Positions 19,147 to 42,014 of a DNA stretch of 64,000 bases are shown here, one piece after another (position 1 is the stretch's first letter; each line of letters starts with the position of its first letter). A program made the position numbers and the translations under genes. The notes under the pieces are model-generated. The model ran no database searches, was not told the DNA's origin, and was given only the letters and a program-made list of their open reading frames with translations. The DNA lies in contig JAFTTH010000007.1 in NCBI GenBank assembly GCA_017466885.1, positions 1-64,000 of the forward strand, written 5' to 3'. Source of the DNA: Oscillospiraceae bacterium. GTDB taxonomy: Bacteria; Bacillota; Clostridia; Oscillospirales; Ruminococcaceae.

Positions 19147-19194
19147 GTTACACAATGGTTACAATTTGCCCAAAATAGTTACAATTTGGTTACA
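19147..19194 (-). promoter_or_regulatory. Four GTTACA repeats (TGTAAC on the minus strand), OmpR-type operator
   Basis: GTTACA begins at 19147, 19158, 19178 and 19189: two pairs at 11-bp spacing set 20 bp apart. Each pair fits the WalR consensus TGTWAH-N5-TGTWAH on the minus strand; PhoP-type direct repeats are similar. The array ends 5 bases before the candidate -35 of the next gene, an activator-like position. Confidence 0.6.
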
Positions 19195-19199
19195 AACTA

Positions 19200-19228
19200 T
19201 TGACAATAATTGACCAGTATGATAGACT
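19200..19228 (+). promoter_or_regulatory. Candidate promoter of the first leucine-rich lipoprotein gene
   Basis: TTGACA, 17 bases, TAGACT. The poor -10 fits a promoter that needs an activator. Confidence 0.5.
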
Positions 19229-20788: not shown

Positions 20789-20821
20789 GGACCCTTTATA
20801 TTTTTGGAAAGGAGATCGACG

Positions 20822-22411
20822 ATGAAAAAGAAAGTAGTCGCGTGTTTTATTGCTGCGATGATAGGAGCTGTTGCGTTGCTTTCCTCTTGTGCCCCTGTTT
20901 CAACTGCTTCTCTGGATAACTTTATCATTGAAGATGGCGTTCTCCTCTCTTACACCGGCACCGCCTCCGAGGTTGTTATCCCGGAAGGGGTCACCTCCAT
21001 TGCCGCCCTTGCCTTTGAAGGAAATAAGAATATGGAGACCCTCCGCCTTTCCGCAACGGTGGAGAAAGTGGAAGAGAATGCTCTCGCTGATTGCGTTTCC
21101 CTTAATGAGATTGTTTTGAGCAAGGGAATGAAGGATTTAAGAGGGGTAATCGTAAAAGATCTTTCGAAAGTTACTTTTGTCATCCCTGATGATATGGATG
21201 AGTTTGACTTGTCTATATTTTATAACAAAAACATTCAGCTTCTTTCGGTTGACGAGGGGAATCCCAAATATAAATCGGTAGAAAATGTGTTATTCACCAA
21301 AGATATGAAAGAGCTGGTCTATTTCCCGATTGGGAACGCTCAGAAGAATTATGTTGTTCCCGATTCCGTTGAGCGTATTGGTGCAACTGCTTTTAAACTT
21401 TGCCGCTATTTAGAATCTGTTACACTTCCCGAATCTATTGAAGAAATCGGAGAAGAAGCATTTACCGGTTGTATAAGCCTAAAGACTATCAATTTGCCTT
21501 CAAACCTCAAAAAAGTTGCGCGAAATGCATTTGCGTTTTGTCGTCAACTGACGGAGATCGTAATCCCAGAGGGTGTAACGGTGATCGAAGAATACGCATT
21601 TGATTCTTGCCAAAATCTCCAGCGAGTGGTTTTTCCTTCTACTTTGGAAACGATTGGAAAAAATGCCTTTCGTGAATGTATGCTACTGGAAACGGCAACT
21701 TTCCCTGACAAATTGAAGTCGATTGGTGAAGCGGCCTTTCTTAATTGTGTGAAGCTGGAAAGTTACCCTTCCGGCAAGACAACAATCGGTGTGGATGCTT
21801 TTAAAAACACCCGATACGAACGGAAAACCCAAGAAGAATTTATTATCAGTGATGATGGAATTTTGACGGATTATAATGGAATCGGGGGCGAAGTGGTTAT
21901 TCCGGAGGGAGTTGTTGACATCAGAGATTCCGCTTTTGAAAACCTCTCGATTCGAAAAATAGTAATTCCCTCCACTTATCAGCCGAAGGGAATCACTTTA
22001 AATAATCCATATATAGGCTCGACGTTAAACGATCAGAAAGCTCATTCAATGAATGATTTGATGTTTGAAGAAATTGTCGTTGCAGAAGATAACCCGTATT
22101 TAACCGTCGTGGATGGCGTGCTCTATACCAAAGATCTCTCGGTGCTCTTGTTTTATCCACAAGGAAAGCCGGACAAAGAGTTTGTCATTCCCGATCATGT
22201 AACACAAATTGCTATGGGCGCCTTTTACAACTGTTTCAATCTGGAATCGCTTTATATTCCTGACTCGGTTGAGAGAATCGGGGACAATGTATTCCATAAC
22301 TGTACCTCCTTGACCGAGGTGCGGATGCCGGAGGATATTATATATTGGGGAGAAACCTTTAGCAATACCCCCTTTGCCGAACTGAATGATATTGATACCA
22401 GTGAGTATTGA
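20822..22411 (+). CDS. BspA-type leucine-rich-repeat lipoprotein 2
   Basis: 529 residues from the ATG at 20822 (ribosome binding site AAAGGAG). Lipoprotein signal MKKKVVACFIAAMIGAVA ending LLSSC. LRR_5 repeats run nearly the whole length (TEIVIPEGVTVIEEYAF type). The segment around LYTKDLSVLLFYPQGKPDKEFVIPDHV is almost the same as in lipoprotein 1, so the pair arose by duplication. Likely surface adhesin or binding protein. No promoter of its own is evident. Confidence 0.88.
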   Translation: MKKKVVACFIAAMIGAVALLSSCAPVSTASLDNFIIEDGVLLSYTGTASEVVIPEGVTSIAALAFEGNKNMETLRLSATVEKVEENALADCVSLNEIVLSKGMKDLRGVIVKDLSKVTFVIPDDMDEFDLSIFYNKNIQLLSVDEGNPKYKSVENVLFTKDMKELVYFPIGNAQKNYVVPDSVERIGATAFKLCRYLESVTLPESIEEIGEEAFTGCISLKTINLPSNLKKVARNAFAFCRQLTEIVIPEGVTVIEEYAFDSCQNLQRVVFPSTLETIGKNAFRECMLLETATFPDKLKSIGEAAFLNCVKLESYPSGKTTIGVDAFKNTRYERKTQEEFIISDDGILTDYNGIGGEVVIPEGVVDIRDSAFENLSIRKIVIPSTYQPKGITLNNPYIGSTLNDQKAHSMNDLMFEEIVVAEDNPYLTVVDGVLYTKDLSVLLFYPQGKPDKEFVIPDHVTQIAMGAFYNCFNLESLYIPDSVERIGDNVFHNCTSLTEVRMPEDIIYWGETFSNTPFAELNDIDTSEY

Positions 22412-40038: not shown

Positions 40039-40066
40039 TTGCTTTTTCCGGATTTTTGAGTATAAT
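40039..40066 (+). promoter_or_regulatory. Promoter of the first M23 gene
   Basis: TTGCTT, 16 bases, TATAAT. The same arrangement precedes the second copy. Confidence 0.65.
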
Positions 40067-40072
40067 ATGGTT

Positions 40073-40120
40073 TGTAACTGTTTGTTACCGTTTTGTAACC
40101 TTTTGTAACCAATTTGTAAT
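40073..40120 (+). promoter_or_regulatory. Five TGTWAY repeats: OmpR-type (WalR/PhoP-like) operator
   Basis: TGTAAC (40073), TGTTAC (40083), TGTAAC (40094), TGTAAC (40104) and TGTAAT (40115): spacings 10, 11, 10, 11, one helical turn each. The array starts at the inferred transcription start, a repressor-like position. Consensus as for WalR (TGTWAH-N5-TGTWAH). Confidence 0.65.
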
Positions 40121-40157
40121 AATCAGGATGATTTCATCCACAGAAAGGAGCGATTTG

Positions 40158-41810
40158 ATGTTTTCCAAAAAATTCGGAGAAGCCCGCAAACCAGCGGAAA
40201 AGTCTGAAAAAGGGAGAACAGCTCAACGCGAAAAAACAAAAACGTTATCTTCATTTTTCAAACAAGTCCAAAGCCTCTCCACCCGATTTTGTTTTGCCGC
40301 CGGAGAGGCAGTCATCACTCTTTTCTCCCAAATTTTCCGGAGACTGGGGCGGTGGCTGCGATCCGTTCCGGCCGGGACAGCACATTTTTGCCGCAGATTT
40401 TTCTCCGGTGTGGGGCGGTTTTTCCTCCGGCGGGGACACACCATCCTCAATTACGTTCTTCCGGTGGCCGGACTTTTTCTTTTTCTGGGTGTGACCCAGC
40501 ATTTTATGGGGCTGACCTTCGGCCTTGCGGTGGAATACCGGGGAAAAACCATCGGGTACGTGCAGGATGAGGAGGTTGTTTGCTCTGCCCAGCAGATGCT
40601 CCGGGAGCAGATCGTTTACGGTGCCGGGCAGGAAGAGATCGCCATTGAGCCCACCTGGACCGTCACTTTGGTGGAAAAAGATCGGCTTTCCGATGCCGAC
40701 GATGTCTGCAGTCAGTTGATCGAGGCCTCCCGGCAGGTGATTCAGCCGGCCTTCGGGCTGACCGTCAAGGGGGAATTTCTGGGCGCTGTCACCGACGGGG
40801 AAATACTGACCCGCACGCTGGACGGTCTTTTGGAGGCTTATCGGGAGGCATATGATTTCGAAACCGTCTCCTTTATCGATGAGGTGGAGGTCAAAGAGGG
40901 ACTTTATCCGGTGGACGATATTCTTCCGGTTCAGGAGCTGACGGCGCTGGTCACCTCAGAGGTATCTGCGCAGATCTCTTACACCGTAAAGGCCGGCGAT
41001 GCTCCTTATACCGTTGCCCGGGAATTTGGCATTACTTTAGAGGAGCTTTATGCCAATAATCCCATCATTGACAACGGTAACCGCTTTCTGCCGGGGGATG
41101 TGCTGCTGATTGCCGGTGCAGAGCCCTTCCTTTCCATTCAGGGCACCCGCACCGAGATTCACACCGAAGCAATTCCCTACCCGGTGGAGAAGGTTTCCAC
41201 CTCCTCCCTCTATCAGGGGCAGACCCAGATCAAAAAGGCCGGTGTGAAGGGGGAGCAGGAGGTAACCTATTCCGTCACCTACCGGAATGATACCGTCGCA
41301 GAAAAAACTGCCCTTTCCACAACGGTCATCCGGGAACCGACCACGCAGATTCTTTGGGTGGGAACAAAAAAGGTTCCCCAGTCCGTTTCCACCATCACCC
41401 CCTCCACCGGAAACGGAAAGATCGGGGATCTGACCTTTCTTTGGCCGGTGGACGGCGGCTACTACTCCCGGGGCTGGGCCAGTTACCATAAAGCCATTGA
41501 TATTGCCGCGCCTCTCAACACCCCTCTCCGCGCCGCGGCAGACGGCGTTGTGGTCTCGGCCTACACCAGCGGCTGGAACACCGGCTACGGCCGATACGTT
41601 AAAATCGACCACGGCAACGGTGTTTGCACCCTTTACGCCCATTGCAACGTCCTGAAGGTTACTGTGGGACAGCAGGTAAAGCAGGGAGACCTGATTGCTC
41701 TGGTGGGCGATACCGGAAATTCCTCCGGCACCCACGTGCATTTTGAGATCCAGGTCAATGGCAACCGGATTGATCCCGAGCCTTATATTGGCAGATATTG
41801 TAACCGTTAA
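40158..41810 (+). CDS. Membrane-bound LysM-G5-M23 cell-wall endopeptidase 1
   Basis: 550 residues from the ATG at 40158 (AAAGGAG). The N-terminal part is basic and cytoplasmic, and a membrane helix spans about 95-122 (YVLPVAGLFLFLG). A LysM domain (about 273-318, YTVKAGDAPYTVAREFGI) is followed by a G5 domain (about 325-400). The LytM/M23 peptidase domain has zinc ligands in HKAIDIAAP (H444, D448) and HVHFE. All catalytic residues are present, so it should cut peptidoglycan cross-bridges. Tandem paralog of the next gene. Confidence 0.92.
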   Translation: MFSKKFGEARKPAEKSEKGRTAQREKTKTLSSFFKQVQSLSTRFCFAAGEAVITLFSQIFRRLGRWLRSVPAGTAHFCRRFFSGVGRFFLRRGHTILNYVLPVAGLFLFLGVTQHFMGLTFGLAVEYRGKTIGYVQDEEVVCSAQQMLREQIVYGAGQEEIAIEPTWTVTLVEKDRLSDADDVCSQLIEASRQVIQPAFGLTVKGEFLGAVTDGEILTRTLDGLLEAYREAYDFETVSFIDEVEVKEGLYPVDDILPVQELTALVTSEVSAQISYTVKAGDAPYTVAREFGITLEELYANNPIIDNGNRFLPGDVLLIAGAEPFLSIQGTRTEIHTEAIPYPVEKVSTSSLYQGQTQIKKAGVKGEQEVTYSVTYRNDTVAEKTALSTTVIREPTTQILWVGTKKVPQSVSTITPSTGNGKIGDLTFLWPVDGGYYSRGWASYHKAIDIAAPLNTPLRAAADGVVVSAYTSGWNTGYGRYVKIDHGNGVCTLYAHCNVLKVTVGQQVKQGDLIALVGDTGNSSGTHVHFEIQVNGNRIDPEPYIGRYCNR

Positions 41811-41917
41811 GGGGTGTTTGCGGGAAAAAACAGCAGAATTCTAACGCTATTCTTCTGAAAAATCCCTTCTTTTCCTCTGGAAAATATCTCCAAACGGCCT
41901 GAAATCGTAAAAAAGGG

Positions 41918-41945
41918 TTGCATTTTCCGGATTTCCGTGTATAAT
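41918..41945 (+). promoter_or_regulatory. Promoter of the second M23 gene
   Basis: TTGCAT, 16 bases, TATAAT. Confidence 0.65.
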
Positions 41946-41951
41946 ATGCTT

Positions 41952-41999
41952 TGTAACCGTTTGTTACCGTTTTGTAATAATTTGATACCAATTTGTAAC
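41952..41999 (+). promoter_or_regulatory. Second five-unit OmpR-type operator
   Basis: TGTAAC (41952), TGTTAC (41962), TGTAAT (41973), TGATAC (41983), TGTAAC (41994): spacings 10, 11, 10, 11 and the same distance from the -10 as in the first copy. The fourth unit is degenerate. Confidence 0.65.
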
Positions 42000-42014
42000 G
42001 AAAGGAGCGATTCG

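Follow-up and report, generated by a model that had tools for sequence, protein, structure and literature searches.

Direct-repeat arrays of probable WalR/MtrA type at two tandem M23 peptidase genes of an Oscillospiraceae bacterium

The window analyzed here is a stretch of 64,000 nucleotides of contig C48 from an Oscillospiraceae bacterium (family Ruminococcaceae), whose draft genome comprises 1.82 Mb on 56 contigs and is 84% complete. It harbors two M23 peptidase genes in tandem, the products of which share 68% identity over residues 73-550. Among named organisms, the closest relative found for the M23 protein comes from Candidatus Aristotella avistercoris (Clostridia), at 42% identity. Both genes are preceded by sigma-A-like promoters that combine TTGCTT or TTGCAT with a 16-bp spacer and TATAAT. 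Behind each -10 element lies an array of short direct repeats, and a third array is found upstream of a gene for a BspA-type leucine-rich-repeat (LRR) lipoprotein (Table 1). A second LRR lipoprotein gene follows the latter at 20804-22411.

Table 1. Repeat arrays, promoter elements and genes in the window
Feature	Coordinates	Strand	Basis or detail
Array 3, two perfect N5 dimers 31 bp apart	19147..19194	-	dimers 19147-19163 and 19178-19194
Putative -35 TTGACA downstream of array 3	19200..19205, plus or minus 1	+	sequence, read from ruler
BspA-type LRR lipoprotein gene, 496 aa	19275..20765	+	putative activated target of array 3
-35 TTGCTT, first M23 promoter	40039..40044	+	sequence; 16-bp spacer to -10
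-10 TATAAT, first M23 promoter	40061..40066	+	sequence
Array 1, five perfect TGTWAY units	40073..40120	+	10/11/10/11 bp spacing
Ribosome-binding site AAAGGAG, M23 gene 1	40144..40150	+	sequence
M23 gene 1, 550 aa	40158..41810	+	N-terminal hydrophobic segment, LysM, G5, Peptidase_M23
-35 TTGCAT, second M23 promoter	41918..41923	+	sequence
-10 TATAAT, second M23 promoter	41940..41945	+	sequence
Array 2, five positions at 10/11/10/11 bp	41952..41999	+	extends to ribosome-binding site
Ribosome-binding site AAAGGAG, M23 gene 2	42001..42007	+	sequence
M23 gene 2, 612 aa	42015..43853	+	LysM, G5, Peptidase_M23

Array 1 consists of the units TGTAAC at 40073, TGTTAC at 40083, TGTAAC at 40094 and again at 40104, and TGTAAT at 40115. 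The five positions of array 2 read TGTAAC, TGTTAC, TGTAAT, TGATAC and TGTAAC, and the fourth of them misfits TGTWAY. An earlier note on this DNA had described five TGTWAY units at each M23 gene, in two identical arrays. This is correct for the first gene, while the second has four such units and only 41 of the 48 aligned bases are the same in both arrays. The spacing of 10/11/10/11 bp, also described there, is kept in both arrays according to the unit positions, and in both copies unit 1 indeed starts 12 bases past the first base of the -10 (TATAAT at 40061 and 41940). With this spacing, units 2 and 3 pair up as one canonical N5 dimer and units 4 and 5 as another, 21 bp further on, and unit 1 is left as a half-site in front; in array 1 these dimers occupy 40083-40099 and 40104-40120. 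Perfect TGTWAH-N5-TGTWAH dimers are found at promoters of the window at 40083, 40104, 41962, 19147 and 19178, and a dimer with one mismatch at 41983. Array 3, which the earlier note had missed, is likewise in phase, and its plus strand reads GTTACA units, the last one just upstream of TTGACA. The bases around the M23 arrays had been said to differ between the two copies. That is true of the leader from the array end to the ATG (37 nt for gene 1 and 15 nt for gene 2), but from the -35 through the array 78 of 92 bases are identical, as counted from the alignment. With this identity the second M23 array mostly reflects duplication. Judged by the alignment, the second promoter and its array are a tandem duplicate and represent weak independent evidence.

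Sites of this type are non-random in the window, in the genome and in the family. TGTWAY-N5-TGTWAY with at most one mismatch has 6 matches in the window, where 0.81 are expected; in 100 shuffles, six matches were never attained. A scan of the 1.82 Mb genome for the three-unit pattern, a check that the earlier note had proposed, returned four matches and none for the reversed control; all four lie at the two M23 promoters. The loose pair pattern is only mildly above its controls in the genome (34 matches vs 21), and single pairs elsewhere therefore need context. Dimers with a plausible promoter were found in this genome at murA, a second LRR lipoprotein gene, and genes for a transglutaminase-like lipoprotein and a Wzy-type membrane protein; the murA promoter reads TATAAT-N6-TGTTAC and then the dimer. 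One small ORF on contig C17 is also marked by a pair. The pair TGTTAGTATTTGTAA on contig C12 and TGTTAT pairs within genes were discarded, since at such match numbers they are likely due to chance or are repeat copies.

The repeats recur at some orthologous promoters; their absence there would have refuted the reading of the earlier note, which thus withstands this check. Among the best relatives from other genera, 7 of 29 orthologous G5-M23 promoters carry a perfect dimer located 34-82 bp upstream of the ATG, and shuffled upstream regions reach each of these seven dimer scores in 1% or less. The dimers lie about 10-16 bp past a TATAAT-like -10 in six genomes (G022, G009, G029, G012, G035 and G054), while in the M23 promoter of G014 additional units come after a TATGAT. 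A perfect same-strand dimer is missing from the other 22 orthologous M23 promoters and from that of Ca. Aristotella avistercoris (L039), the closest named relative. Across the family, the three-unit pattern has 155 matches in 74 of 299 genomes, compared to 15 matches in 14 genomes for reversed controls, and the longest arrays have six units (L263, L265). The spacer, which was left free by the search, has the consensus CRWWT in the family arrays. This results in an 11-bp unit, TGTWAYCRWWT, that agrees with the MtrA-type box KTRACC-N5-GTKAC (PMC5650626, PMC3353115).

Candidate genes beside 82 arrays in 80 fetched loci were surveyed. They encode, among others, M23 proteins, NlpC/P60 proteins with a PcsB coiled coil, G5/3D/DUF348 proteins, a PASTA kinase and PucR-type regulators. 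M23, NlpC/P60, G5, LysM, 3D and DUF348 recur beside the arrays and are absent from the control families listed. Lipobox proteins make up 20 of 73 array neighbors and 2 of 95 control neighbors (p=1e-6), and proteins with a hydrophobic N-terminus 38 of 73 and 16 of 95, respectively (p=2e-6), where both rules are simple patterns and possibly wrong candidate ORFs dilute both sets. Across the family, the genes next to arrays are enriched in peptidoglycan hydrolases, lipoproteins and envelope proteins. Most family arrays are located upstream of the -35 (28 on one strand and 17 on the other vs about 2.7 expected on each), and fewer are found downstream of the -10 (9 and 10 vs 3.3 and 2.3 expected), which makes the repressor-type position of the M23 arrays a minority class. 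A hint of helical phasing in the array-promoter spacing was set aside because it is inflated by homologous promoters. Some individual cases were also noted. Six relatives (L209, L214, L228, L233, L235, L236) have a common three-unit array upstream of genes for PucR-type regulators (HTH_30 with a GGDEF-like domain). A four-unit array lies upstream of a gene for a PASTA-domain serine/threonine kinase in a genome of genus g119 (L205:199-2463), with a similar array in a second g119 genome (L206). In genus g88, the genes for small membrane proteins of 105-108 aa (L190, L196, L198) are preceded at a distance of about 150 bp by four-unit arrays, which lie on the opposite strand.

The genome encodes four Trans_reg_C proteins. 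One of them, the candidate regulator encoded on contig C17 (G000:C17:18943-19632; L122:3944-4633), has 230 aa with a receiver domain (PF00072) and PF00486. It scores 258.4 bits on the MtrA and YycF models alike and 239.6 bits on PhoB; its 258.4 bits are below the curated cut-offs of both the YycF equivalog (NF040534, 340 bits) and MtrA (NF040689, 300 bits). At E <= 1e-85, a regulator of this type was found in 258 of the 299 genomes of the family, with 71-86% identity in those for which identities are listed. In relatives the regulator gene is followed, in one cluster, by genes for a HAMP/HisKA/HATPase kinase and an HtrA-like protease. Here, a WalK-like HAMP/HisKA kinase gene (C54:114514-115953), the product of which shows 55% identity, lies together with an HtrA-like gene on contig C54 (L304), and the regulator gene stands alone on C17. 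The order regulator-kinase-HtrA resembles the wal operon of B. subtilis. These findings support a putative WalR-type assignment, though not membership by curated cut-offs. An alkaline phosphatase gene (L122:4893-6257) is convergent to the orphan regulator gene. Inspection of the region upstream of the C17-type regulator gene revealed no array, and autoregulation was dropped as a candidate; published wal operons are not autoregulated (PMC9210968).

The reading given in the earlier note, a WalR-class operator of the OmpR family, remains the best one in view of the sites at orthologous promoters, the envelope neighbors and the presence of a regulator and a likely kinase in the genome. However, the arrays might bind another OmpR-family regulator, above all that of the two-component system on contig C50 (a 224-aa regulator with an adjacent kinase of about 496 aa), or both regulators might compete for them. 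We regard this as unlikely, though it is the most serious of the alternatives. Genera g15 (G014, G156, G229, G283) and g119 (G118, G205, G265, G316) are array-rich with a C50-type but without a C17-type regulator at threshold. Arrays occur in 10 of 17 genomes with only the C50-type regulator (2.76 matches per genome), in 21 of 105 with the C17 type but without the C50 type and in 1 of 24 with neither, groups that are phylogenetically non-independent and include incomplete genomes. The 21 genomes speak against the C50 system, as do the M23 operators of G009, G012 and G035, which have the C17 type only, and the limited spread of the C50-type system, which at the chosen threshold is seen in no more than 170 of 299 genomes. 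Presence and absence cannot single out one regulator, with arrays in C17-only and C50-only genomes alike. A unique assignment does not follow, since the array-rich genera include some with one and some with the other of two different OmpR-family systems; that the regulator gene lies outside the window, as had been noted earlier, agrees with the position of the candidate on another contig. The array-rich genera g15 and g119, which lack a close WalR/MtrA-like regulator, suggest a regulator swap on similar operators.

PhoP repeats of B. subtilis read TTHACA-N5, and PhoP-P represses the tagAB and tagDEF promoters. A resemblance of the arrays to PhoP repeats on the other strand had been pointed out before, and it holds for the units themselves, since the minus strand shows GTWACA every 10-11 bp. 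Phosphate boxes of PhoP/PhoB type would also be in line with the repression that PhoP-P exerts on tagAB/tagDEF (cited in PMC4415409) and with the alkaline phosphatase gene that adjoins the candidate regulator. We nevertheless consider such boxes improbable: no phosphate-uptake family is among the 25 commonest array-adjacent families, a partial list, the genome scan found no pair at the alkaline phosphatase gene, and the PhoB score of the regulator is below its YycF and MtrA scores. The kinase-htrA synteny fits WalRK instead. It is hardly credible that the repeats act in the leader RNA, as an attenuator or a riboswitch-like structure, and not at the DNA level. In favor of such an action, GTAAC units can pair with GTTAC units, and folding of the second leader is slightly better than that of its shuffles (z=-1.79). 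The first leader shows no such advantage (z=0.40), there is no Rfam match, and the majority of the arrays in the family are positioned upstream of the -35, on one strand or the other. Equally far-fetched is the idea that tandem duplication or a skewed base composition produced the repeats without any regulatory function. Their 78/92 identity does mark the two M23 promoters as products of a tandem duplication; the shuffle and reversed-pattern controls, the recurrence at orthologous promoters of other genera and the bias toward envelope genes all argue against this explanation.

Taken together, the arrays are probably operators of an OmpR/PhoB-family regulator, most likely of the WalR/MtrA-like C17 protein, which would block transcription past +1 at the M23 genes and activate it elsewhere. 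In S. aureus, WalR acts as an activator from sites upstream of the -35 and as a repressor from those that lie between the -35 and the -10 or downstream of them, whatever the orientation of the site (PMC10746227). MtrA of C. glutamicum obeys the same position rule (PMC3353115) and represses mepA and nlpC (PMC9602371). Which regulator binds, where transcription starts, whether the effect is activation or repression and how the dimers cooperate are inferred as follows. The C17 regulator would be phosphorylated by the WalK-like kinase on C54, and its dimers would bind head-to-tail TGTWAC-N5-TGTWAY sites, with consecutive dimers on one helix face, 21 or 31 bp apart. In the predicted transcript, the M23 arrays would extend from about +1 to +48 and by the position rule should repress. 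Here, bound regulator would block initiation or promoter clearance, and cell-wall cutting would be turned down. Sites upstream of the -35 at genes for BspA-like lipoproteins and other envelope proteins, including the array at 19147-19194, would lead to activation. More tentatively, this could be a family-wide form of WalR/MtrA-type control, in which three to six in-phase half-sites, in place of single dimers, allow a graded assembly of dimers, with a roadblock from +1 to +48 at M23 genes and upstream activation of lipoprotein genes, and in which a second OmpR-family system may act on these operators in genera that lost the WalR-like regulator; we see this wider proposal as possible, but rather doubtful.

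If the preferred reading is right, an operator of cell-wall homeostasis from Bacilli and Actinobacteria would extend to a large and little-studied clostridial family, with a predicted regulon of M23 enzymes, murA, and BspA-like and other lipoproteins. The arrays offer a test of graded control by multi-dimer sites. With array-rich genera that have no WalR-like regulator, it also becomes testable whether regulators were swapped while the operators were conserved.

Several known systems resemble the arrays. PHO boxes of PhoP/PhoB share direct-repeat units of 11 bp, the number of which varies between operators (PMC4415409). They differ in unit sequence and apparently in target genes, with no phosphate genes seen in the partial list of the commonest array targets. 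The operator of WalR (YycF/VicR) in Bacillota is TGTWAH-N5-TGTWAH, and in S. aureus 5'-TGTHH[N]6WGTNDD-3' (PMC10746227, PMC9210968). The unit, the direct-repeat N5 dimer, and the wall hydrolase and envelope targets all match the arrays described here. In contrast to WalR sites, up to five units, and six in relatives, are in phase at alternating 10/11 spacing, the half-sites prefer GTWACC, and the walR-like gene lies apart from walK-htrA in this genome; our literature search found no report of multi-unit WalR arrays. The fit to WalR that had been proposed earlier thus stands for the TGTWAH-N5-TGTWAH dimers, but actinobacterial MtrA boxes fit at least as well (GTAACC-N5-GTWAC). For MtrA of C. 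glutamicum, Streptomyces and Mycobacterium, the boxes (A/G)TAACAATttn(A/G)TAACAAT (PMC3353115) and KTRACC-N5-GTKACN (PMC5650626) have been described. The family unit agrees with them, with the first one as its reverse complement, and MtrA sites near the -10 repress while those upstream of the -35 activate (PMC3353115, PMC9602371), the same logic as proposed here. Unlike in MtrA systems, the host is a member of the Bacillota, the arrays are long and in phase, and the regulator's neighbors in relatives are kinase-htrA instead of mtrB-lpqB. The type of operator and its logic are therefore already known, and the control element is not wholly new. What is new is that a little-studied clostridial family has extended in-phase arrays, that walR is separated from walK-htrA in the present genome, and that there are array-rich genera without a WalR-like regulator.
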